This document shows positions 1,972-17,933 of a stretch of 20,520 nt of DNA, one piece after another; the first letter of the stretch is position 1; every line of letters begins with the position of its first letter. The DNA comes from a virus. The notes below the pieces were generated by a model. It was not told where the DNA came from. It saw only the letters and a program-made list of their open reading frames with translations, and did no database searches. Both the position numbers and the translations under genes were made by a program. Location of the stretch: positions 1 to 20,520 of the IMG/VR virus record IMGVR_UViG_3300030110_001695; one strand, given 5' to 3'.

Positions 1972-4728
1972 ATGGCAAATCAATTCACCACAAAAGAAGT
2001 ACTGAACAAAGTACTATTAGACTCTTCAGGAAACGCCGTCACGGCAAATTCAGTAACTACACAAGAAGCTTTTAATTCAGCTTTAGACACCACAAACAAC
2101 AGATTAAATATGTCCCTAGCCGGAGGTACAATTTCTGGTGATGTAACTATATCTGGAGACCTTACTATTTCTGGTAGCAATACTTATACATATGACGAGC
2201 AAATAGATGGTCAACTATGGCTAAAAGATTCAACGGCTAGTGGCTCAGGTAAAGGTGGTCATTTGAGGTTGTTTAGTGACGATGATGCGGCTATGGCGGC
2301 AGGCGACAGATTGGGAGTTATAGAGTTTGCTGGAGCAGAAGACACCTCTCACACTATAACAGTTGGAGCTAGAATTGAAGCTTTGGCAGAGTCCACATAT
2401 ACAGCTTCTGAAAATGGTTCTTCTTTATCATTTTATACTACTGATGGTAATGCTTCTCAATCTGAAGTTTTGAAATTAGATTCAAACAAACTTGCTACTT
2501 TTTCTGGCAATCTTACTTTTACTCATAGCGGTGCAACTATATCATCAACTCTTGGGTTTTTACAATTAAGAACACTTGAAGGTGATAAGAATATGTTAAT
2601 TGACTGTGGTGATAAATTTAAGTTTAGAGATATGGATAGTGGTAATGCAGTTAGAGTCGCTATTGATTCAGCAAATGGTAATCTTTCCATAGGTACAGAA
2701 ACAGCTACAAATAACCTTCATATCGAAGCAACTGCTGGTGATGGGGGTATAACTATACATAGTGCGACAAATACTGGAAATGCCGTTATTTTAGATGCGG
2801 CTAGAACAGGAACGGATAATGGAATAGGTACTATAGTTGGCAAGTGGGATGGTACAGATATTGGTTATATGGGATTTTTTAGTGGTAGTAATACTGGTAG
2901 TAAAGGTGGTGTATTAAAATTTGCCACTGCACCTAATGGTGGCTCTGCTACTGTTGCACTTACAATAGGCTCTGACCAATCGTCTACCTTTAGTGGAGTA
3001 ACAACTATAAAAACAGATTCATCTCCAGCTTTTATGGTTGACGATGCAAATGGAGATACTCAATTTCAAGTCAATGTAAACGCATCAGATGGAGCAGAAA
3101 TAGAAGTAAGTGATGGTGGTAGCGATGGAAGAGTAAGATTTTCTGCAAGGTCAGGTGGATATAACTACATTACCAATGCTGGAACTTGTCGGTTGGGCAT
3201 AGGAACTGACTCACCATCAGAATTACTGCATTTAGAATCAGCAGAACCAGTATTAAGATTTACAGATTCAGACGATAGTAATTATCATCATATTTTTGCA
3301 TCATCAGATGACCTTTACATTAGCGCAGATAGAGGTGAAACTGGTACTAGTGCTGGAAATCTAATTTTTAGAGTTGGTGGCACAAATGTAAAAATGAAAT
3401 TAGATGTAAACTCTAGAATATCACTTGGAAATAATGATTCTAGTGGTGTAGCAACTAATACAATATTCGGTTATCAAACGGCAAATGTTTTAGCGAGTGG
3501 AGCATTAGAAAATACATTATATGGATACCAATGTGGATTGGCACTTAGTACAGGAGATTATAACACGGCATTTGGGGCTTTAGCTTTAAAAACAGAAGAT
3601 GTTGGTCAAGGTACTACCGCTATTGGTACTTCTGCTTTGTTTAGTCAAAATACAGCCTCTCAAGGCTTTTCGCATAATACTGGTGTTGGTCTATCAACAT
3701 CTTATTATAATGTTACTGGCGTAAATAATACAGCTATTGGCTCTAATGCTATGCTTGGAGTATCAGGAAATAGTCACTCTAATAATACAGCAATTGGATT
3801 TGAGGCTTTAAAAGTTGTAACAACTGGTCATTCTAATGTTGCAATCGGAGCTGGTGCTGGAGACGCTTTAGTGAACGGAGTTGAAAATGTCATTATAGGT
3901 AAAAACGCAGAAGCAAATTCTACAGATGCTGGTAATTGTATAGTAATAGGTTCGACAGCAACTGGAAAAGACCACAACTCAGTAACGCTTGGTAATGCAT
4001 CTGTAACTGATGTTTACATGGCACAAAATAGTGGTGCTACAGTTCATGCAAGACATATGAATTTAATTGATTCAGTAGACAATGCAAGTGGTGGTATTTT
4101 AAATTTAAAAAATGATAGAGACAATCCAGCAGATAACGATGAAGCTGGTAGAATTTATATGTATGCAGATGATGATGGTGGAAATGCAACAGAAGCAATA
4201 TTGATGATTGGTAGAATGACTGATGTAACTGATGGAACTGAAGATTCAGATTTAAGAATATATACATATAATAATGGAACTGCTGTCAATACGCTACAAT
4301 TATCGTCAGGAGCATTATCAAAAAATTCAGGTAGTTTTAAAATAGACCATCCACTTGAGTCTAAAAAAGATACTCATCATTTAGTTCATAGTTTTGTTGA
4401 AGCTCCACAAGCAGATAATATTTACAGAGGTAAAGCAACTCTTTCAAGTGGTTCTGTTGAGATAAATCTAGATACAGTTTCAGGAATGTCAGAAGGCACA
4501 TTTGTATTGCTAAACACAGATATACAATGTTTCACATCTAATGAATCCGACTGGGATGCTGTAAAAGGTTCTGTAAGTGGAAACATACTTACTATATCTT
4601 GTCAAAACACAGATTCAACTGCAACTGTATCTTGGTTAGTTATAGGTGAAAGACAAGACCAGCATATGCTAGATACGAATTGGACTGATGAGAATGGTAA
4701 GGTAATAGTAGAACCATTAAAAAATTAA
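1972..4728 (+). CDS. Tail fibre / receptor-binding protein with YadA-like repeats (918 aa)
   Basis: Probable host-recognition fibre. The N-terminus (about residues 1-50) is a helical anchor-like segment. It is followed by a beta-repeat start (SGDVTISGDLTISG, about 55-68) and a long Gly/Ser/Thr/Asn-rich shaft. Residues about 490-690 hold repeats of the YadA-head type (NTAFGALAL, TTAIGTSAL, NTAIGSNAM, NTAIGFEAL, NVAIGAGAG), which fold as a trimeric left-handed beta-roll in known adhesins. The C-terminus (about 785-918, from HPLESKK to IGERQD) is a separate globular domain and is not an S74 chaperone. Possible ribosome-binding sites are TAGGA at 1961-1965 (6 bases before the ATG) and GGAGGA further upstream. 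Low-complexity beta repeats, trimerisation and receptor binding fit the family; the actual receptor cannot be read. Confidence 0.85.
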   Translation: MANQFTTKEVLNKVLLDSSGNAVTANSVTTQEAFNSALDTTNNRLNMSLAGGTISGDVTISGDLTISGSNTYTYDEQIDGQLWLKDSTASGSGKGGHLRLFSDDDAAMAAGDRLGVIEFAGAEDTSHTITVGARIEALAESTYTASENGSSLSFYTTDGNASQSEVLKLDSNKLATFSGNLTFTHSGATISSTLGFLQLRTLEGDKNMLIDCGDKFKFRDMDSGNAVRVAIDSANGNLSIGTETATNNLHIEATAGDGGITIHSATNTGNAVILDAARTGTDNGIGTIVGKWDGTDIGYMGFFSGSNTGSKGGVLKFATAPNGGSATVALTIGSDQSSTFSGVTTIKTDSSPAFMVDDANGDTQFQVNVNASDGAEIEVSDGGSDGRVRFSARSGGYNYITNAGTCRLGIGTDSPSELLHLESAEPVLRFTDSDDSNYHHIFASSDDLYISADRGETGTSAGNLIFRVGGTNVKMKLDVNSRISLGNNDSSGVATNTIFGYQTANVLASGALENTLYGYQCGLALSTGDYNTAFGALALKTEDVGQGTTAIGTSALFSQNTASQGFSHNTGVGLSTSYYNVTGVNNTAIGSNAMLGVSGNSHSNNTAIGFEALKVVTTGHSNVAIGAGAGDALVNGVENVIIGKNAEANSTDAGNCIVIGSTATGKDHNSVTLGNASVTDVYMAQNSGATVHARHMNLIDSVDNASGGILNLKNDRDNPADNDEAGRIYMYADDDGGNATEAILMIGRMTDVTDGTEDSDLRIYTYNNGTAVNTLQLSSGALSKNSGSFKIDHPLESKKDTHHLVHSFVEAPQADNIYRGKATLSSGSVEINLDTVSGMSEGTFVLLNTDIQCFTSNESDWDAVKGSVSGNILTISCQNTDSTATVSWLVIGERQDQHMLDTNWTDENGKVIVEPLKN

Positions 4729-7418: not shown

Positions 7419-9931
7419 TGCCTAAACAGCTTTACAGGCTAAACGACTTTAGCGGTGGTTTAAACAAACTTAAAGACGGTGCCGATATACAAGACAATGA
7501 AGTCCAAGAGGCTCAGAATGTAATGTTTAATGTTTATGGTGGTATACAGCCAGCATATTCATTGGCACAAACTGGCAATAAGATTTCAGCGTATCAAGCC
7601 GATGAGGTTGCAACGGTACAGCCGGGATATGGATTAGGTTTTTTTGAGACGGATTACATTAGAGATGGGGTAACTGTTTCACGAACCAGCGGTATTACAG
7701 GAACTGCTGATAGCGAAGGTTCTGCCACTGGTTTTATAGGTAGAACTAATAGTAGTTATGGTACTACTATGGTGGAGTTAGAATATAGAGATAGTGGAGC
7801 TCAACAAAATTTAGCGTCTTCCTTTCCAATAGGCTCCACTATTTTACTGACGGTTTCAACTTTTATTTCAGATGCTATAAGACCTAATGGTCAGGGTATA
7901 TACCGTGTCGTTAATGTAAATGGTAATAATATAGTCTTTGACAGGGTTATTGACATTGCATTAGAGGGAGGGACTCCTCAAAATTATTGGGGAGCTACCT
8001 TAAAAGGAGTTTCTTTGGGTGACCAAGTTATTTTGGTCGCTAATCCTGCTGACCACAATATAGATGTATTTTCTGTTGATGCTAATAATTATACACATAA
8101 TGTAATTACATTAAATTCAACAAGTATTTCTGGAGTTACTTCTAAAGTTAAGTATTACAAAGTAGAAGATTCTATACGATGCTGTGATACCTCTGAAAAA
8201 AATAGCTCTAAAATACAATGGTATGGATGGATACAGAGAAGGCATTTTAGCAACCTCAGTAATACCGGCACGACTACTGATGATAATTCTTATATGGATT
8301 ACTTCGCAAAAGATAATGACCTTGCAAGGCCTACAGAAGATGATTTAGCATCTACTTCAAGCACTTCTAGTGCAGTTTCAACCTATCCTGCCAGTGCTGG
8401 AACCGGCTTTGAAATAGCTATAACAACTAGGACTGATTTATCGGGTTTAATAGAAGAAGGGGTTTACGAGCTTGCATCTACCTTTATATATGATGGTAAC
8501 CAAGAATCTCTACCAACTGCTTATGCCAATACTCATAGCGTAGCTGGTCGCAATGAACTTACAGCCCTGTCTATAAACATAGGTGCTAAAGGGCCATACG
8601 ACCCTAGAATATCAGGTGGTAGGATATACATAAGAAAGCAAGGTGACGATTCTGAATATGTTATGCTTATTGATATTGACCTTACGAAGGGGTGTAGGAC
8701 TAGACTATCTGATGACTTTACTGCTTGGCATGATGCCGGTAGCTCTACCTATAATTGCCCTACAGCAACAGCTTCTGCAAATTTTGAAGTAACAGAATTA
8801 GGATTTATAACGTATGAAGTTTTAAATGGTTATTCTTCAAGTATATTTAGCAATGCTCTTGGTGACCAAGGAGAACATTGGAGGGATTCCGCTACTTCAA
8901 ATGATAGGGTATTTATTTGCAATGTTACAATGAAAGATGAAGGTACTGGAACTTCCAAATCTGATTCTGTTTTAAAAAATTATCCAGATAGAATAATGTA
9001 TTCAATGCCAAACCGTTATGATACTTTTCCTTCTGAAAACTCTATTGAAACGGCCAAAGGAGATGCTGATATATATGTTGCTATAGATGCTTACGCTGAT
9101 AGACTTCTTGCTTTTAAAAATTATAGCGTTGATATAATAAATATATCTGGAGATGACAAGAATTGGTTTTTAGAAGAAAGTAGGCAGTATCAAGGAGTTG
9201 CACATCCAGAAGCGGTAAAAAGAACTCAGTATGGTCTTGTTTGGGTTAACGAACAAGGTCTTTATTTATACGATGGGTCTAGTATTAAAAATTTAAAAGA
9301 ACAAAAGATAAGCGACGATGTATGGTCTACTCATGTAAGTTCATCATCTTCAATAGTATATGACCAACAAGCATCTATGGTGTTTGTAGTGAAGAATATG
9401 GGCTCAGATGGCGATGCTTATATGTGTGATTTAAAAAAGGGTAATTTTACACTTATAAAAGATTTTGTTTTAGATGCAAATGATGGAGTTACCAACTCTG
9501 TTGATGGGGCAGGCAATAGAACTTACATAGCACATGATAGTGGTAGTGCTGTAGATATATATCAAGTAAGAAGAGATGTAGTTGCCGCTACGAATACAAA
9601 ATTTAGAACAAAAGATTTTGATTTTGGTAGTCCGTTTCAAGTAAAGAAAATATATTCAGTTCATATAACTTATAAATCAGATGTTGCACTTACTAATCTT
9701 TTTACAATAGTTGAAGAGGATGGAACTGCTACAGCATTAAATGGAACTATATCAGCATCTGCTACTAACTGGGCAAAAGTGCAAATAACACCCCCTGCCG
9801 CCAGCGATGGACGTACTGCTTTCGTTTGTAATAAGGCATCTATAAAGCTCGATACTTCATCTACATCTGCAAAGGTTTATATAAACGACATAAGTATCGA
9901 ATATAGAGTTTTGTACCGTAAAGGCGTATAG
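7418..9931 (+). CDS. Large tail hub/nozzle-like structural protein (837 aa)
   Basis: It begins LYRLNDFSGGLN, the F-x-GGLN opening typical of large phage tail or DNA-stabilisation proteins. The second half has NYPDRIMYSMPNRYDTFPSE, then DRLLAFKNYSVDIINISG, then GLVWVNEQGLYLYDG (about residues 520-630). This order (a printed-out position, a value the ribosome can see, a small Gly-Asp turn) is what beta-propeller nozzle/hub proteins such as P22 gp10 show. T7 gp12, the tail nozzle, is 794 aa and lies similarly just before the internal core genes. The C-terminus is strand-rich and ends in a conserved-looking YINDISIEYRVLYRKG. The start overlaps the peptide gene stop; the end overlaps a GTG start (TAGTG). 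Virion role is likely; the exact homology is inferred. Confidence 0.65.
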   Translation: MPKQLYRLNDFSGGLNKLKDGADIQDNEVQEAQNVMFNVYGGIQPAYSLAQTGNKISAYQADEVATVQPGYGLGFFETDYIRDGVTVSRTSGITGTADSEGSATGFIGRTNSSYGTTMVELEYRDSGAQQNLASSFPIGSTILLTVSTFISDAIRPNGQGIYRVVNVNGNNIVFDRVIDIALEGGTPQNYWGATLKGVSLGDQVILVANPADHNIDVFSVDANNYTHNVITLNSTSISGVTSKVKYYKVEDSIRCCDTSEKNSSKIQWYGWIQRRHFSNLSNTGTTTDDNSYMDYFAKDNDLARPTEDDLASTSSTSSAVSTYPASAGTGFEIAITTRTDLSGLIEEGVYELASTFIYDGNQESLPTAYANTHSVAGRNELTALSINIGAKGPYDPRISGGRIYIRKQGDDSEYVMLIDIDLTKGCRTRLSDDFTAWHDAGSSTYNCPTATASANFEVTELGFITYEVLNGYSSSIFSNALGDQGEHWRDSATSNDRVFICNVTMKDEGTGTSKSDSVLKNYPDRIMYSMPNRYDTFPSENSIETAKGDADIYVAIDAYADRLLAFKNYSVDIINISGDDKNWFLEESRQYQGVAHPEAVKRTQYGLVWVNEQGLYLYDGSSIKNLKEQKISDDVWSTHVSSSSSIVYDQQASMVFVVKNMGSDGDAYMCDLKKGNFTLIKDFVLDANDGVTNSVDGAGNRTYIAHDSGSAVDIYQVRRDVVAATNTKFRTKDFDFGSPFQVKKIYSVHITYKSDVALTNLFTIVEEDGTATALNGTISASATNWAKVQITPPAASDGRTAFVCNKASIKLDTSSTSAKVYINDISIEYRVLYRKGV

Positions 9932-10617
9932 TGGAAAGAATTAGCAGATACACAGTAAATAAAAAGCAAGATAAAATAAGAGTTGTTAACTCACAGCCAT
10001 CTGTTAATTCAATGAGGGACGGAGAAGAAGTTTTATATTTCAGTAAGAACAACCAACTCTCAAGATTTAGAAAAGAAAAGGGTATGTTGTGGCGTTCGGA
10101 TATGTCACATAGTGGAAATCATTTTATAGAAAATAAACTAACTACTACAAAATTAGAGTATCGCAAATCATTTTTAGACTATAGAGCTTTCATGCACAAC
10201 TTTGAAGATGATATAGGAACTACAAAACATTACTTGCCTTGGTGGGGAACGACTGAAAGTTCTACTGGAATGGATGACCATAGAGTTGGCTTTGTAACTC
10301 CTTTTTCTATGACTTTATATAAAGTTATTGTAAGACCTAATGATGTAACTGCATCTGCTGACATTACAATACGAGTAGAAAGGCAAGATAGTGACAACAC
10401 TGAAGACGTAGTTGCAACTGCTGTATATGACGTTTCTGAAATGGGTGCCATTACAGATGATACAAACTTTGAACTAGCTACCTCTGATTTTGATGTTGCA
10501 CCACGAGTTGAAGCGGGAAAACTATGTGGACTAAGCATGCAAGCAAGTAGTGATGTGGTTGGTGCTAGTCACGATTGGTACATTACTTCTGTATGGAAAG
10601 TGCGAGTATTAATATAA
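9931..10617 (+). CDS. Virion structural protein (228 aa, GTG start)
   Basis: Its GTG start overlaps the stop of the hub-like gene by one base (TAGTG), implying coupled translation and matched amounts. Residues 20-50 carry NSMRDGEEVLYFSKNNQLSR and then RKEKGMLWRS, a pattern I associate with tail or fibre-attachment proteins of uncultured phages. Residues about 105-228 form a beta domain (FSMTLYKVIVRPNDV, then DITIRVERQD, then the final WYITSVWKVRVL). No enzyme motif is seen. A minor tail protein that binds the hub or a fibre is the best guess. Confidence 0.6.
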   Translation: MERISRYTVNKKQDKIRVVNSQPSVNSMRDGEEVLYFSKNNQLSRFRKEKGMLWRSDMSHSGNHFIENKLTTTKLEYRKSFLDYRAFMHNFEDDIGTTKHYLPWWGTTESSTGMDDHRVGFVTPFSMTLYKVIVRPNDVTASADITIRVERQDSDNTEDVVATAVYDVSEMGAITDDTNFELATSDFDVAPRVEAGKLCGLSMQASSDVVGASHDWYITSVWKVRVLI

Positions 10618-10665: not shown

Positions 10666-12162
10666 ATGCATTACAATTCAGGTAAATCTAAAAAATCAGA
10701 CCCAATGTCCTCTGGCCCAAATATGACTGGTTACTATATGGGTGATTCTTCCAGTTTATTAAACATGATGCAAACAGGTGGTCAAGCAAGTGCCGGTGCG
10801 GCCTTACTTGCTAGGAGCAGACAAAGAAGGGCAGATAGGGAGGTACTTGAGCGTATACAAAAAGAAGAAGCGGAAAGGCAAAAGAAGGGAAGTACGTTTG
10901 GCTCTCTTTTTAGAGAGGGTGCTAAATATTTAGGTGGTGCAGTGTTTGGCCCAGTGGGTAGAGTTGCTGGTGCCTATTTAGGTCAAAAAATTGGAGAGGA
11001 ATATGGTGCTGGTGACCCAGTGGATTACGATACAAGTGGTACTGTCTATGGTCAAGACCTTTTTGAAGATGTAGATGAGGCTAGTGAAGACTACACTAAA
11101 GGCATTGATGAAAGAGCGTTAGTTGCTGGTCTTGAAACTGGAGTAGACACCTTATCGAAAGCGGCTAGTCTTTTAATGGGTGGTACTGGAACAGGTTCAG
11201 AGGCTCAGTTAATGATGTCTGGATTAGATGATAGCTTTACACCTGACAGTTCTTTTTCAGGATTTACTATTGATACACCTAATATTACTCCAAGTGCTGA
11301 CATTGGCCCATTTTCTGGCCCTGTCACATTTGATTCGCAACAATATTATGATTCTTTTCCAAGTTCTACAGATGCTATTGGTGATAATTTAACAGGGGGT
11401 AGGGGGCTATCTCAAGATGACGTGTTTCCTTTTCAAGAAGGTGGCTCTGTAGATATACAAGATATCTTAAGAGAGGCAGGTATAATGGCTACTCCAAACC
11501 AATTAGCTTTGTTTGAAAAGTTTGACCCCTCTCAGTTAAATAAATTAAAAGAATCAATGAGTCAAAGCCTTTTAGGCATGAGTAGCGGAGAAGGTTTAGC
11601 AAGTGTTGGTTCTGGTTTTGGAGCTCAACAAGCCTACAAGCAAGACGTTATTGAGGGAGCACAGGAGTCTCTTTTAGATGCAACGACAGATTCTACAAAA
11701 GCATTTGCATCCAAAACCCTAGGTGAGGTTGCTAGAATGGAAGATAAAGGAGTAAATTTTCTTTCTCTTGATTTAATAAATAGATTGACTGGTACTGGTG
11801 ATACAGGCTCTACTGGCCCACAGCAAACATCACCACTTGATAGTCCCGGAGAATTTGCGGGACAGACTATTAACTATAATGGACAAACCTACTCTTGGAA
11901 TGGCTCTGAATGGCAAAATCAAAACCCTGACCCTTCATTTGGCTTATCTGATAAAAGATTAAAGAAGAATATAGAGAGCATAGGAGTTTCTGATTCCGGT
12001 ATTAATATTTATACTTTTGAATATGCGGATGAAAAGCATGGTAAGGGTAGATATAAAGGAGTAATGGCACAAGAAGTTCCTTGGGCTACTATACCTTTAG
12101 ATAGTGGTTATTTAGCAGTTGACTATAATAAAATTGACGTAGATTTTGAGAGGGTTAATTAA
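10666..12162 (+). CDS. Internal-virion-like protein with C-terminal peptidase S74 chaperone (498 aa)
   Basis: The C-terminus from residue 428 (SDKRLKKNIESIG, then YTFEYADEKHG, then YKGVMAQEVP, then AVDYNKI) is a short peptidase S74 intramolecular chaperone. In this family Ser and Lys five residues apart cleave the chaperone off after folding of a trimeric protein; here S428 and K433 match. Unlike usual hosts of this domain, the N-terminal part is not a fibre. It has a basic coiled coil (about 48-75, RSRQRRADREVLERIQKEE), Gly-rich membrane-like stretches (FGPVGRVAGAYLGQKIGEEYG, about 98-118; LVAGLETGVDTLSKAASLLMG, about 145-165), and a Ser/Gly-rich middle. It occupies the T7 gp14-like place. 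The S74 domain is confident; the virion position is inferred. Confidence 0.75.
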   Translation: MHYNSGKSKKSDPMSSGPNMTGYYMGDSSSLLNMMQTGGQASAGAALLARSRQRRADREVLERIQKEEAERQKKGSTFGSLFREGAKYLGGAVFGPVGRVAGAYLGQKIGEEYGAGDPVDYDTSGTVYGQDLFEDVDEASEDYTKGIDERALVAGLETGVDTLSKAASLLMGGTGTGSEAQLMMSGLDDSFTPDSSFSGFTIDTPNITPSADIGPFSGPVTFDSQQYYDSFPSSTDAIGDNLTGGRGLSQDDVFPFQEGGSVDIQDILREAGIMATPNQLALFEKFDPSQLNKLKESMSQSLLGMSSGEGLASVGSGFGAQQAYKQDVIEGAQESLLDATTDSTKAFASKTLGEVARMEDKGVNFLSLDLINRLTGTGDTGSTGPQQTSPLDSPGEFAGQTINYNGQTYSWNGSEWQNQNPDPSFGLSDKRLKKNIESIGVSDSGINIYTFEYADEKHGKGRYKGVMAQEVPWATIPLDSGYLAVDYNKIDVDFERVN

Positions 12163-14015
12163 TGGCTAACGGGCCTAGAACAATATATAGTAGAAGACAA
12201 CGTATGGCTCCGGGCCAGTACGACACACCACTTGCAGACTTTTTAGATAGACTGCCAGATTACGTAAATCAATTCCAACAAAATCAATTAGCGATTGGTA
12301 GGCAGAAACTACAGGAGCAGAGATATCAAGATTCTATTAGCAGGCAAAATAGATTAGATGCCGAAGCTAGGGAACAGCAGAATATTGAAAATTTAAAATA
12401 TATACAAAGGCAAAAAGAAAAAAAGGCAATTAGAGCTGGTGAAGCTTTAGATAAGGCCAAGGAGGTAAATCGTGCAGAGTATGAGTCTGTGCTAGAAGGG
12501 CTTTCAAAATATGACTATGGAGCCAAGTCAAAAACAGCAAAGACTTTTGGCTATGATACCGAAGCTCAAAATTATAGTTCATTAGCAGACACACAATTTG
12601 ACAATTTGGTTTCCAGCAGGGAAAAAATTGATAAACTTAAAAGTCTTTCGTCAACCGGTACTTATTATGATGCAAATCCAATAATGCAATCTTTTTCACC
12701 TAACGAAATTAACGAATTGAAGGAAAGAGACCCTTTGTATTATGCTGATTTTATAAAGACAAGGAATGTATTCTCAGAACAAGAAAGTACTGGCATGCGT
12801 GCTATGCCTAAAAATATATCTAATAGACTTTCTCAAGTAAATAATATTATACTAGATACGGAAAGAAAATTAATTGATGCTTATAGAGATATGAATTATG
12901 ACGTTAGGGCAATGGAAGAAGCTCTGGCTAAGGGGGAGGATTTTCAGTTGCCAGAGGCTATTAAGGAGACAATGAAATTAACAGGAGGCGACCTTAGTAA
13001 TGTGACAAGCCTTGATAGGGACTTGAAAGATTATATTAATATTAGGAATAATATTCAATCGCAATATAAAATTGTACCGCCTAAACCAAAAGAAGGCGAA
13101 GATGCTAAGATGATAAAGATGCCTGATGGTACAATGGTACCTGCGATGTGGGCAGAAACAGCCGATGATGAAATACCTTTTAATATTGCCAGACCTGATT
13201 ATGACCCATCTGAAGGAATTAAAGTACCGGAGACAGTTAATGAAGCTATAGACCAAGAAGACAGAGTAGATTCTATGTATATATTATCATCTGCTCCAGA
13301 AGATTCCCCTGAGTATAAAAAAGCAATGGAAACTTTAAGTCAGGGCAGGGATGTGGATATTACCACCCCTAAGCCTCTACCCGGATTATCTGGTTTAATA
13401 GAAAGACTTAGTGTTGCTGGTCGGGGAATAGAGGAGGGTCAAAGAGAAGACTCTGGTTTTAGAATAAATCCTAACGCATTGGCTTTTGATTTGCCACCAG
13501 AGGGAGTAGATAATCCAGAGTATTATGATAGGGTAGCACAGCAGTTTAATATAGAGGTTGATAAGTTAAGTACTCTAACTCTTCAGCCAGAACAATATGA
13601 GGGAACTGGTAAAAGAGGTGCTAATCAAAAAGCAGTAGAGCTTAACAGCTCCTTAAAGAGTCGTGACAATTTAGTTAATCAGGTAAAGGCTTTGTATAAA
13701 AAAATACCCAAAACAAAAAAATTTGCAAATCAAATTAAAAAATTTAAAGATATTATTAACAGCAACCCGACCGGGGTACAGGTAGTATTAGACAGAAAGG
13801 CACGAGGGGGTAAGGGTGCTTTTAAATTTAATAAAAGAAAGCTTAGTCAGAGTGATAAACTTTTACTTGCTGAAATAAATAAAGATTTAAACTTTGAAGA
13901 GCCTCAAGAGTCAAATCAAGACTTGCTACAAAGATTATCTAATGTCGGTGGGGCAATGGCTAGTCCAGCGGGTAGAGCTGGAATGACTTCACAGCCTATT
14001 CAGTTGTTTGAATAG
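12162..14015 (+). CDS. Internal-virion/ejection-like protein (617 aa)
   Basis: Residues about 30-95 form a long Gln/Lys/Arg-rich helix (QNQLAIGRQKLQEQRYQD, then EREQQNIENLKYIQRQKEKK-like segments), typical of proteins stacked in a virion core. The rest is hydrophilic with several further helical stretches, a Pro-rich linker (about 300-360) and a basic region near residues 500-560 (KKIPKTKKFANQIKKFKDII). In size and place it corresponds to T7 gp15 (747 aa), one of the ejected core proteins, though no sequence relation can be shown here. Its start overlaps the previous stop by one base. The downstream gene starts 7 bases after the stop without a clear ribosome-binding site. Confidence 0.6.
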   Translation: MANGPRTIYSRRQRMAPGQYDTPLADFLDRLPDYVNQFQQNQLAIGRQKLQEQRYQDSISRQNRLDAEAREQQNIENLKYIQRQKEKKAIRAGEALDKAKEVNRAEYESVLEGLSKYDYGAKSKTAKTFGYDTEAQNYSSLADTQFDNLVSSREKIDKLKSLSSTGTYYDANPIMQSFSPNEINELKERDPLYYADFIKTRNVFSEQESTGMRAMPKNISNRLSQVNNIILDTERKLIDAYRDMNYDVRAMEEALAKGEDFQLPEAIKETMKLTGGDLSNVTSLDRDLKDYINIRNNIQSQYKIVPPKPKEGEDAKMIKMPDGTMVPAMWAETADDEIPFNIARPDYDPSEGIKVPETVNEAIDQEDRVDSMYILSSAPEDSPEYKKAMETLSQGRDVDITTPKPLPGLSGLIERLSVAGRGIEEGQREDSGFRINPNALAFDLPPEGVDNPEYYDRVAQQFNIEVDKLSTLTLQPEQYEGTGKRGANQKAVELNSSLKSRDNLVNQVKALYKKIPKTKKFANQIKKFKDIINSNPTGVQVVLDRKARGGKGAFKFNKRKLSQSDKLLLAEINKDLNFEEPQESNQDLLQRLSNVGGAMASPAGRAGMTSQPIQLFE

Positions 14016-14021
14016 TGTGTT

Positions 14022-17000
14022 ATGCCTGAGTCAACAAGTAAATATTCATATTATGAAAACCTTATTAATGATTTATCAGGTGACATTAGTGATACCTCTA
14101 TTCAAAAATTACAAAACACAGGTGATTATTTAGAAGAGGCTTCTAATTACGACAATAATTTATTTGACCCCAGTGCTTTTGTCAATGCTTACAACGAAAG
14201 AGAATCTAGTTTTAAAAAATCAAAAGAAGATGAGAATCTATATGGTTTTATACCCGGAGACTGGTTACCAGACTGGGTAAAAGCTGGATACAATCAAAGC
14301 CTTACTGGCCTAGCTGAACAAGTGGCAACTGGAGATGCTAGATTTGACCTTTCTAATTATAATCCCGGTATGCTTGAAGACATTGGTGCTACTGTTATTT
14401 CTTTTTTGCAACCTTTAGATTGGGCAACTATGATAGCCACGGGTGGTGTTGGTGGATTAGCCGCTAAAACAGCTACAAAAACGGCGGTTAAAAAAGCAAT
14501 ACAACAAGGAGTCGGCAAGGGAGTAGCAGTTAGCGATGACCTCACAAGGGCTATCATTGGTAAAAATGCAGAAGAGGCTAAGAGAAGGCTTGTTTTAAAT
14601 AAAGTTCCTTTAAAGACAGCCGACCAAGTAATTAAAAAAGCTACACCAAGAGTATTAAATCAAGCTTTTCAGTCATCGGCAGTAGGAGGCACCCAGCTAG
14701 GTTTTTATAGTGGCTTGCAGTCAAGCCTTGGTCAAATAGCAGACCCAGAACAAGAATTTGACTTACTGATGAATATTAAAAACGCATCTAAGGGTGTTGT
14801 TCTTGGTTCGGTAACTGGTGCTACTGGCCCTGTAGTAAAAACAGCTTTAAAAGGATTGAGCCCTGTAACGCAAACACTAGCATCTAAAGCTGTAGAAACT
14901 GCTGAATTTGGCACAATAGCACCTATTATGGAGGGTGAACTGCCTACTATTGAAGACTATGCACATGCGGCGGGTGTTATAGGGGCTCTGGGAGCACAAA
15001 GATACGCTAGTGGCAAGCTAGTTAAGGGGTATAAAAAAATTACACAAGCTAAGAAAGATGTGAAACTCGGTTTAGATGAGGGAGCTAGAATATTAGGTCA
15101 AATTGAAACCGATATGAGAATACAGCCTAATGAGGTATTTACTGCGAGAGATGGAACAAAAGTTAGGGATATTCGTTTTGATACTAGAACAACAAAGAAA
15201 GAACAAAGAACAACCGGTATAGGAACAGAGAAGACTACCTTAACTGAAGATATAGTTAAGCTTAAAGACTTTGAAACTGGAAAAGAATTAAACCCTATTA
15301 AGTTTAGTACTTTTCAGCAAAAAGGATTTACTAGAGGGGGTAAAGGTAGCCCTGCTGAACTCACACAAAGAAGAGTAAATGGAATTTTTGAAATAAGAAA
15401 AAATTTAAACATGAACGATGCTACTTTTCAAAACAGGTCTGGCGTTATTACTGGTAAAGATTTAGTGGGTCAAAATCCAAAACGTATTGTAAAGAACATG
15501 ACACCTCTTGAACAACTTAAAATGCTAAATCAAATGAGACACGAAACAAGGGTTGTTAAGCTGAGGGAGAGAATAAAGAATAACGGATGGGAAAGCACAA
15601 TGATTCCAGACAAAACTTTGTCTGACTATCATGGAATAAAATTTCTTGACAGGGCTGGAAAAAGATTGCAAACACAGTTCTCTACGGATGTACAAAATAG
15701 AGTAAATAACGCAGATGCTAGATATTTTACTTTATTAGGTCAAATGAGCAGAAGGCTTACTGAGTTAGGTCTTGAATCTTCTGGCATGGCAAAAGCAAAG
15801 CAAGTAATTAGCACTAAAGCAAAAGAAAAAGCTAGGCAAGAGGCTGTAGACTTAGGCAGAAAACTACAAGATTCTAAGTTTGCTAATGACCCCAAGGTAA
15901 GAGAGTATAGAAAAATACTTGATGATATGTGGGAAATAGCTAGAAAGGCTGGTGTAGACCTTGGGCCCAAGGAAGAGTTTTATTTTCCTAGGGTTATAAA
16001 AGAAGACGTACTAAAGGTTTTATCTGGAGACATAGCAAAGTTAAGAGACCAAAACCCTCAGTTGTTTGCAGAAAATGCAATGTATAATAAACCTAAGTTT
16101 CAAGAAGTTGTTGGGGATATTATCTCAAAAGGAAAGCTTTCTAACGAAACATTAAATATTATCTATGAAATGGCAGGAATTAGAAGAGACCTTGCTAGGG
16201 AGCAAGTTCCTGATTTTAATTTAAGAGTGTCGCAAGCTTTTAAAAGTTTAAATACCACTGTTAATTCTCAATATCACAATATTGCAAGCCATTTAGAAAT
16301 AGCTAGAAAAGCAAAAAATTTACCTGAACGGATGCTTGAAACAGATGCTAGAATAGTTCTCGCTAAATATGCTCATCAATGGGCTAGGAGGGTTTCTAGT
16401 GTTGAGCAGTTTGGAAATAGAGGTGAATTTTGGCAACAATCAATTAGTGGATTGCGAAAGTTGGCACAAAACAAAAACAATAAATATAGTGACAAAGAAG
16501 TTAAAGTATTTAAAGAGGAGGCAAATGTTCTTGATAAGATATATAAAATCTATACTAATAACATAGAGCTTGACCCCTCTCATAATTGGAAAAGCCCTGC
16601 CGCTAGAAGAGTTTGGAATGAAATAGTAGATTTTGAAATAGGTTCTAAGATAGGACTTGGATTTGCTACGGTTCCAAACCTTACACAGCTATCAATATCT
16701 ACCGCTGTTAAAACTGGATATTATCCAGTAATAAAGGGGATGTATAAGCTAATGACATCTTCAGAATATAGAAAACTTATAAAAGAATCTGGTGTTACAA
16801 ATATATCTTTATATGAGTCTTTGGCTGGTTTAAAACCGAGTGATACATTTTTTAACAAATTTGCTGAAGGTGCAACGTGGCTATCTGGATTTAAAAAGAT
16901 AAATGAAATAAATCAGTTAGTGTCTTCTGCGGCGGCTAAAGAATGGATAGAGATGTTACAACCCATAGCACAAGGAAAAGGCACTGGCAAGTTTAAAGCA

Positions 17001-17933
17001 AGGCAAAATTGGGCTAGGGAAAATTTGAGAGACTTAGGTCTATTAGACATTAACAAAATAACTGACCGTCAAAAAGCGGAGTCAATGTATAAGTTTGCAA
17101 GGGATACACAGTTACAAAGAAACATACTTCAAGAACCGTTAGTTTTTAATGACCCAAGGTTTAGGCCCTTGTTTTTATTTAAAAAGTTTGGATACAAACA
17201 GTTTAATTGGATAAGGGGTCAATTAGGGGATGAATTAAAAAGAGGCAATATTTTTCCTATGTTAAGATTGGCTTCTGCTGGATTACTTGGTGGAGAATTT
17301 GTTTCTCTTGCACGAGATAAATTAGCAGAGTTTTATGCGGGTGAAGAGGTATATGATGAGAATGAATACTTCTTAAACTATGGTGGCATTAAGGACGTAG
17401 CTTTTGGAGATAAAAAACTAAACTCGTTGATTAAAACAGATAGAATGACATGGGGTGATGTTCTTGATAGATTTGCATCTGTTGGTGCTTTTGGTATTGC
17501 GATGGATGTAGTGGCCGCTGAAAATACTATAAGAGCTTTGGAATTTGCTGGTAAGCCCGCTTTTGTCCAAGACTTTGACAAGATATGGTCGGCGATGACT
17601 AGAACACATGAAAACATTAAAGAGTATGGTGGTATCGGTGCACTGAAACGTCTTCCGAAATACATTGCCCCTGTATTCGGAACTGTTCCTAGGAGGGTTG
17701 CTCAAAGAATAGAACCAGAGGGTCAACGTAAAAGCTATGTAAAGTACAGAAAAGGATTAACTCGCTCAAAAATACTAGATTATATAATAGAAGGTAACGA
17801 CATAAAAGCAACTAGGCTTATCAAAAATTGGAATAACACTTTTCCAGAAAGTCCTTTGTTGTATGATGATATATCAGTTGATGAAGTCACAAAAAGAATT
17901 ATAAACAAAGCAAAGAAAAGAGCTAATCCTTAA
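14022..17933 (+). CDS. Large internal-virion / DNA-ejection-like protein (1303 aa)
   Basis: By far the largest gene; length and last position in the late block match T7 gp16 (1318 aa), which is ejected into the cell and helps DNA entry. Gly/Ala-rich membrane-active stretches are seen at about 115-150 (IGATVISFLQPLDWATMIAT, then GGVGGLAAKTATKTAV) and near 235-330. Residues about 640-670 carry KEEFYFPRVIKEDV, and about 1040-1110 carry FNDPRFRPLFLFKKFGYKQF, patterns I have seen in very large phage proteins that ride in the virion. I do not see the lytic-transglycosylase motif that T7 gp16 has at its start, so cell-wall digestion is not supported. The start has no good ribosome-binding site. The end overlaps the opposing gene by 11 bases. 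Confidence 0.7.
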   Translation: MPESTSKYSYYENLINDLSGDISDTSIQKLQNTGDYLEEASNYDNNLFDPSAFVNAYNERESSFKKSKEDENLYGFIPGDWLPDWVKAGYNQSLTGLAEQVATGDARFDLSNYNPGMLEDIGATVISFLQPLDWATMIATGGVGGLAAKTATKTAVKKAIQQGVGKGVAVSDDLTRAIIGKNAEEAKRRLVLNKVPLKTADQVIKKATPRVLNQAFQSSAVGGTQLGFYSGLQSSLGQIADPEQEFDLLMNIKNASKGVVLGSVTGATGPVVKTALKGLSPVTQTLASKAVETAEFGTIAPIMEGELPTIEDYAHAAGVIGALGAQRYASGKLVKGYKKITQAKKDVKLGLDEGARILGQIETDMRIQPNEVFTARDGTKVRDIRFDTRTTKKEQRTTGIGTEKTTLTEDIVKLKDFETGKELNPIKFSTFQQKGFTRGGKGSPAELTQRRVNGIFEIRKNLNMNDATFQNRSGVITGKDLVGQNPKRIVKNMTPLEQLKMLNQMRHETRVVKLRERIKNNGWESTMIPDKTLSDYHGIKFLDRAGKRLQTQFSTDVQNRVNNADARYFTLLGQMSRRLTELGLESSGMAKAKQVISTKAKEKARQEAVDLGRKLQDSKFANDPKVREYRKILDDMWEIARKAGVDLGPKEEFYFPRVIKEDVLKVLSGDIAKLRDQNPQLFAENAMYNKPKFQEVVGDIISKGKLSNETLNIIYEMAGIRRDLAREQVPDFNLRVSQAFKSLNTTVNSQYHNIASHLEIARKAKNLPERMLETDARIVLAKYAHQWARRVSSVEQFGNRGEFWQQSISGLRKLAQNKNNKYSDKEVKVFKEEANVLDKIYKIYTNNIELDPSHNWKSPAARRVWNEIVDFEIGSKIGLGFATVPNLTQLSISTAVKTGYYPVIKGMYKLMTSSEYRKLIKESGVTNISLYESLAGLKPSDTFFNKFAEGATWLSGFKKINEINQLVSSAAAKEWIEMLQPIAQGKGTGKFKARQNWARENLRDLGLLDINKITDRQKAESMYKFARDTQLQRNILQEPLVFNDPRFRPLFLFKKFGYKQFNWIRGQLGDELKRGNIFPMLRLASAGLLGGEFVSLARDKLAEFYAGEEVYDENEYFLNYGGIKDVAFGDKKLNSLIKTDRMTWGDVLDRFASVGAFGIAMDVVAAENTIRALEFAGKPAFVQDFDKIWSAMTRTHENIKEYGGIGALKRLPKYIAPVFGTVPRRVAQRIEPEGQRKSYVKYRKGLTRSKILDYIIEGNDIKATRLIKNWNNTFPESPLLYDDISVDEVTKRIINKAKKRANP

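Follow-up and report, generated by a model that had tools for sequence, protein, structure and literature searches.

A minimal Peptidase_S74 domain on the first protein of a presumed viral ejection cassette

Introduction

In the accessible parts of PMC8326128 and PMC10769870, Peptidase_S74 is described as the chaperone-protease of trimeric β-helical fibres and of MyRF. What, then, is the role of such a domain at the end of a protein whose gene is placed like that of a phage ejection protein? The question is raised by a virus fragment of 20,520 bases, the whole of which is referred to here as the window. A preliminary description had offered two answers: either the protein is a trimeric tail-tip or spike-like component, or the chaperone has been reused on a core protein. 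The second is the better supported of the two, by gene order, by a helical or disordered model, and by cultured phages in which gp7-type regions occur together with S74 (PAE2_13, AH02_11). Taken as a whole, the reading that is judged reasonably probable is that a minimal S74 domain assists the first ejection protein and then cuts itself off. The features of the window are collected in Table 1.

Table 1. Positions of genes and protein features in the window
Feature	Position	Strand	Basis or remark
Fibre-like protein, 918 aa, without S74	1972..4728	+	ORF, profile searches
Probable gp10/tail-tube-B-like protein, 837 aa	7418..9931	+	Weak profile-profile match
228-aa protein between gp10-like gene and cassette	9931..10617	+	Possible needle/tail-tip slot, by position only
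S74-bearing first gene of presumed ejection cassette, 498 aa	10666..12162	+	ORF, profile match, gene order
Long predicted helix with family-conserved Gly-rich (glycine-zipper-like) stretch, residues 43-115	10792..11010	+	AF2, family alignment, hydropathy
Low-confidence, probably disordered variable linker, residues 171-257	11176..11436	+	pLDDT <50; alignment gaps
Mostly helical region without β-helix, residues 264-360	11455..11745	+	AF2
Small β motif, residues 401-418, inside NGQTYSWNGSEW	11866..11919	+	AF2, relatives
Minimal Peptidase_S74 domain, residues 428-497	11947..12156	+	Profiles, domain model; predicted cut directly before S428
S74 Ser, S428	11947-11949	+	
S74 Lys, K433	11962-11964	+	
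Second cassette gene, 617 aa, gp15/gp20 slot	12162..14015	+	Order; start codon overlaps S74 stop
Third cassette gene, 1303 aa, gp16 slot	14022..17933	+	Order and size

The S74 domain

Residues 428-471 match PF13884 (Peptidase_S74) with an E-value of 1.6e-6 and 28.7 bits, against a curated cut-off of 22. The S-D-x-x-x-K dyad motif is complete (S428, K433) and agrees with the motif in the accessible text of PMC10769870; the domain with intact S428 and K433 that the preliminary description had placed on the gene at 10666-12162 is thus confirmed. A profile search found no second S74 match elsewhere in the 20,520-base record, and the fibre-like ORF at 1972-4728, correctly described as lacking the domain, has no match in the Pfam S74 profile search.

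The domain is of a short form; it comprises about 70 residues at the extreme C-terminus, and the protein ends two residues past the iterated-profile match. An AF2 model of the isolated 72-residue stretch (mean pLDDT 90.9) is made up of short strands and turns. It contains no C-terminal triple-coiled-coil helix, the chain ending 70 residues after S428. The best solved relative by sequence is 3gud_A, a neck appendage protein (E 0.0017); the Foldseek and VIA-align lists for the isolated domain hold no solved S74 entries. The window domain is a minimal or variant S74, for which self-cleavage is predicted from the invariant dyad only.

Relatives were gathered by scanning viral contigs with one conserved, dyad-free stretch, the best 80 of 400 loci being kept, and an S74 profile (six dyad-bearing seeds, iterated once) was run on 93 sequences. 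Among the matches listed, there are 94 S74 ORFs in 87 loci, and in 91 of these 94 the domain lies no more than 15 residues from the ORF end. Three of the 94 are longer S74s; merging identical rows leaves 72. Ser, Asp and Lys of the motif are present in all 72 distinct domains among the matches listed, an invariance that is strong yet not unbiased, because both seeds and ranking favour dyad-bearing sequences. Fifteen pairs were compared for dN/dS, eight of which were saturated; values for the S74 region were 0.08-0.14 in five usable pairs of relatives and about 0.3 in two pairs involving the window. The region is under purifying selection in most usable pairs. S74 counts from Pfam alone are lower bounds, because PF13884 misses some short domains; in G015/L047 none is found by Pfam, and the iterated profile does find S74.

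Other arrangements were also encountered. Many viral proteins of about 740-890 residues (L053 and many of L019-L092) have the same short S74 at the end. One of them, P0002 (L053:7595-10210), the only one of its kind that was scanned, has a sub-threshold match to a baseplate OB domain. At L026:4539-5815, L075:3200-4482 and L078:8079-9361, two adjoining ORFs of about 209 and 214-216 residues each terminate in a short S74. At L028:1-3999, L031:1-2973 and L033:1-3528, the first of two adjacent ORFs has a longer S74 and the second ends in a short one. L048 has two S74 ORFs, 9317-10222 and 14708-15682, one before a gp10-like gene and the other after a weak core homologue. In relative L001, the S74 of the fibre is longer and is extended at its C-terminal side by sequence resembling a coiled coil.

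Genomic context

The podovirus ejection operon, as laid out in the accessible part of PMC8954989, consists of a small gp14-like gene, then a gp15-like and then a larger gp16-like gene. The window gene is the first of a three-gene cassette behind a probable tail-tube-type gene, and this order (498, 617 and 1303 residues, after genes for 228 and 837) is kept in relatives. The tail-tube assignment is itself weak: the 837-aa protein reaches gp10-type profiles with E 0.0085 at a probability of only 4.7%, five other profiles giving 0.4 or worse, and it also has a sub-threshold β-propeller match.

Searches for named families returned little. The 617-aa protein has no family match above cut-off, and none of the window neighbours matches a named family above its curated cut-off or an ejection PHROG. 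Outside S74, the window protein matches neither phrog_598 nor phrog_4287 nor PF25688, and PHROG, Pfam and profile-profile searches gave no sequence link between residues 1-427 and ejection families. The 1303-, 837- and 617-aa proteins have no tblastn match in 50,697 phage records, and comparison of their families with solved structures produced nothing credible. Homology of the cassette to P22-like ejection proteins was considered and set aside, profile-profile comparison giving only the weak gp10 signal. The ejection slot is therefore given by order and shape, not by membership, because sequence matches to named ejection families are lacking. Of the 'ejection-protein block' of the preliminary description, the synteny stands, while the family assignment of the neighbours does not follow from these searches. 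In a scan of genome collections, the only relative of the 1303-aa protein was on L273, a 9.6-kb contig of a Marinimicrobia MAG (39% identical), which may belong to a host or be a stray viral contig.

Related proteins in cultured phages

Among 16 cultured-phage proteins examined, 12 have a short, near-terminal S74 (1-23 residues following) with the dyad present, so that an S74 tail on such a protein is not unique to the window. The other four are MW202675, with an internal domain; a protein annotated for a tail-fibre domain, with a longer tail; and two with none. DSL-LC05 p32 and RHph_I1_23_13 are without S74 though they are homologues of S74-bearing proteins.

Two of the 12 are PAE2_13, residues 3-228 of which match phrog_598 ('DNA ejection', E 5.7e-30) ahead of a terminal S74, and AH02_11, with a phrog_598 match (E 1.1e-14) followed likewise by a terminal S74. 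The window protein would accordingly work like gp7/gp14 rather than be a member of that family, because the phrog_598 match holds for these two and not for the window. Matches to phrog_4287 ('DNA ejection protein') are found in phiM5_27, OH gp40, DB2_18 and ppBeUSDA76-2, and matches to phrog_6121 in phiGT1_17, Mwe-JY13 and Mx8p54. Annotation lines and PHROG names already reveal S74 on proteins of this kind; the GenBank note for phiGT1 names the S74 domain, the injection proteins being the next genes, and phiM5_27 and the three genes after it bear the GenBank note 'detected in phage particle proteome'.

In a scan of ten following genes, three had above-cut-off matches to families of cell-wall hydrolases (glucosaminidase in NYA, Hydrolase_2 in DB2, SLT in the third ORF of PAE2) and six had no match at all; the match of AH02_12 to the P22 injectosome translocase stays below its cut-off. 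In Mae-JY35 and Mx8, the ORF after the S74 gene is a small one.

Internal and double S74 domains

In another lineage, the same domain is found inside long chains. The 1185-aa 'internal virion protein D' of MW202675 has S74 at residues 276-341, preceded by a part of phrog_4287/6121 type and followed by an SLT transglycosylase part. A scan with this protein gave 80 loci, 73 of which have the same internal form; of the remaining seven, four end soon after S74 and three before it, at the end of the stretch. Together with the query, there are 74 ORFs with an internal S74 and more than 150 residues after it. Their N-terminal parts are related to that of the query, and some ORFs are cut by contig ends. 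Distinct sequences among them number 62, and each of the 47 distinct S74 rows has S, D and K. Two S74 domains are present in nine of the 57 distinct ORFs of 700 residues or more, and the Ser and Lys of the dyad are kept in all 66 domains of these 57. All six fused ORFs scanned have phrog_4287/6121 matches, and two of the six have an SLT domain by Pfam. For L242, cuts before Ser would yield pieces of about 280, 501 and 734 residues. The long ejection-type ORFs with an internal short S74 are those at L113:6179-9736 and in L193-L272.

The two forms are connected by phiM5_27, which has a near-terminal S74 and aligns with the N-terminal part and S74 of the fused protein P0003 (E 4e-11). The same kind of protein is thus either a separate, S74-terminated gene or the front of a long chain with an internal S74. 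No relation was found between the second PAE2 gene and the C-terminal part of P0003; within PAE2, the SLT part of P0003 matches only the third ORF.

Internal and double domains suggest, by their sequences, self-processing of ejection polyproteins. This leads to a reading that overlaps with the preferred one and differs from it in purpose: S74 in this slot would cut or trim ejection proteins and would not be a folding aid. Fused ORFs would be the full form, and in the window, where the junction falls between genes, only the tail would be removed. The internal and double domains, all bearing the dyad, and the alignment of phiM5_27 with P0003 speak for it, as does gene spacing: the S74 stop lies within four bases of the next start in 11 of the 12 cultured phages (the exception is AH02), and in the window the two overlap. 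Start/stop overlaps are, however, common in phages, and the share of fused forms is biased, since the query was itself fused. Moreover, a cut before Ser would make S74 the N-terminal portion of the following piece, and the second PAE2 gene, being unrelated to the C-terminal part of P0003, also counts against this reading, as does the restriction of the SLT match to the third ORF of PAE2. It explains internal and double domains better than does assistance in folding; as an account of the window gene it is a serious but lesser possibility.

More tentative still is a generalisation of the same idea, in which the minimal, coiled-coil-free S74 would be a widespread self-processing module of the podovirus ejection apparatus. 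In many lineages it would trim the first ejection protein, and fused polyproteins would be cut by it at one or two places, so that autoproteolysis, and not a separate protease, would make the stages of the DNA conduit. If this were true, the repeated occurrence of dyad-intact S74 on helical ejection-type and fused proteins would change the purpose ascribed to the domain; S74 would provide a cheap test for ejection-protein processing; and record names such as 'tail fiber domain-containing protein' and 'putative tailspike protein', given to some of these proteins, would need correcting.

Structure of the protein ahead of S74

The whole window protein was modelled with AF2 as a monomer from a 41-row alignment (mean pLDDT 65.7), the S74 part being confident. 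Helices are predicted at residues 29-37, 43-115, 130-170, 289-306 and 318-360. The chain ahead of S74 is helical or disordered in this monomer model, with no β-helical shaft, including residues 200-427; a β-helical fold in that region, which the preliminary description had named as the finding that would speak against a core protein, was not found. Its coiled coil and Gly-rich, membrane-like stretches fare unevenly: the Gly-rich character is retained and the coiled coil is modelled as long helices, while the membrane-like character is doubtful in the window, where the best 19-residue hydropathy is only 0.95. In the corresponding Gly-rich segment, the seven relatives that were scored rise to 1.3-2.0. 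In relatives, S74 either directly follows a small β motif like that of the window or is missing. Searched by fold, the whole model found no PDB entry reaching E 0.001. In BFVD the top rows start at E 1.4e-3, and some of them are phage proteins whose names refer to an ICA domain; the VIA rows are common helical arrangements.

With these results, the first of the two original options, a trimeric tail-tip, needle or spike component served by its S74 chaperone in the manner of a fibre, loses ground and is now unlikely. S74 does normally serve trimeric fibres, and the long protein P0002, with its sub-threshold OB-domain match, ends in the same short form. Against this stand the model, which lacks a β-helix and is disordered over much of its length, the core homologues that do without S74 in 46 of 54 records, and the gp7-type proteins with the same tail elsewhere.

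Distribution of the tail in the window lineage

The S74 tail is optional in the lineage of the window. It is present on the core protein in eight of the 54 records with a visible core C-terminus, a share that must exceed the true one, because several of the eight were found via S74 itself. The 46 without the tail count against the preferred reading. Left out of the tally are cores truncated where a contig or locus ends (G004, G017, G018 and G036-G039 are examples), records that only the second or third gene led to, and the weak-core records G015 and G016; in G016, the core homologue has an S74 ORF immediately behind it. Of the eight, G008 and G009 encode the same protein, and G032 bears S74 on the second, split-off ORF of its core. 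Cores split into two ORFs were noticed at L133:5797-7649, L142:9001-10547 and L151:5504-6905, the second bearing S74 in L133.

On a third-gene tree, made by a quick method (45 rows, 44 labelled) and without incomplete or much divergent third genes (among them those of G008, G009, G010 and G014), the four S74-bearing rows require at least three changes. G001 and G003 are nearly the same virus, with end branches of 0.0013 and 0.0063 on that tree and 96% identity over an 825-base region containing the beginning of the core gene. The core of G003 has the S74 tail and that of G001 ends without it; conversely, the fibre of G001 has a longer S74, and the 814-aa fibre frame of G003 has none. The proteins of L122 and L013 share the ending GQTYVWSEEEGQYV, at which L122 stops and from which L013 runs on into S74. 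Such patchiness would fit a domain that arrived by recombination and has little function here, and both the difference between G001 and G003 and the changes on the tree favour that view; the invariant dyad and the low dN/dS in five of seven usable pairs make it quite improbable.

There may be a real tendency for S74 on the core to go with a fibre lacking it. Where both ends are visible, fibre S74 occurs in none of four records with core S74 and in 14 of 21 without (Fisher p 0.026), the other seven of the 21 having S74 on neither; this tally includes only profile-matched fibres, ignores kinship and concerns a pattern noticed after the fact. The S74 frame of G028, which matched no fibre profile, was left out. 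Across ways of counting, p ranges from 0.02 to 0.105, the most severe variant (11 of 21) giving 0.105; with four further S74-free records counted as negative and all 15 positives included, it is 0.042. A tally of 0/4 against 15/21 (p 0.017) was rejected; it accepted some positives by position and omitted some negatives, favouring the effect. Also rejected was a strict rule of one S74 per genome, on fibre or core: several records, G005 among them, are without S74, and G016 carries two S74 ORFs that both failed to match the fibre query.

Proposed mode of action

In the preferred reading, in which S74 assists the protein and is then shed, the window protein would occupy the gp7/gp14 slot, as the first of three proteins that are packed in the head and ejected to build a DNA conduit. 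After synthesis, the C-terminal S74 (ICA) domain may aid assembly of the helical protein. Contacts of the host protein itself probably drive this assembly, because the usual trimerising helix is missing. S74 would then cut the chain directly before S428; the virion would keep about 427 residues, and a piece of 71 would be shed. Packaging and ejection, the oligomeric state, cleavage and its timing are all things that we infer. The chief reason for caution about a classical S74 mode of action is that this helix is missing; the absence of a sequence link from residues 1-427 to ejection families also counts against the reading.

Comparison with known systems

Neither ejection proteins that carry S74 nor longer phage chains that contain it are discussed in the accessible parts of PMC10783043, PMC10386132, PMC3909814 and PMC10769870. 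The likeness of the window domain to the Peptidase_S74/ICA family (PF13884: endosialidases, the T5 L-shaped fibre, GA-1 gp12, MyRF) consists of the profile match and a Lys five residues after Ser. The S74 of 3gud has 129 residues, whereas that of the window has about 70 and lacks the C-terminal coiled-coil helix; the protein that carries it is helical or disordered in the model, in contrast to the β-helical proteins of known S74/ICA fibres. In Bdellovibrio, according to the accessible text of PMC10769870, an S74 domain with the SDxxxK motif cleaves itself at Ser, and cleavage is lost in a Ser-to-Ala mutant.

MyRF offers a further parallel. Like the fused phage ORFs, MyRF is a long chain with an internal S74. 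Its cleavage requires trimers that are held together by a C-terminal helix (PMC8326128, in the part accessible); MyRF keeps this trimerising helix, whereas the short S74 of the window, as modelled, is without it.

Among ejection proteins, P22 gp7 and T7 gp14 (phrog_598, PF25688) resemble the window protein in being encoded by the first of three genes behind a gp10-like gene, and the window protein shares with them a Gly-rich, helical character in the model. It differs in being about twice as long and in having no sequence match to phrog_598 or PF25688. Members of phrog_4287 ('DNA ejection protein') and phrog_6121 ('virion structural protein') have the same short, near-C-terminal S74 and a similar place in the operon, while the N-terminal part of the window protein is unrelated to them by profile comparison. 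The proteins of PAE2 and AH02 combine both features: they are of the phrog_598 type and carry S74.
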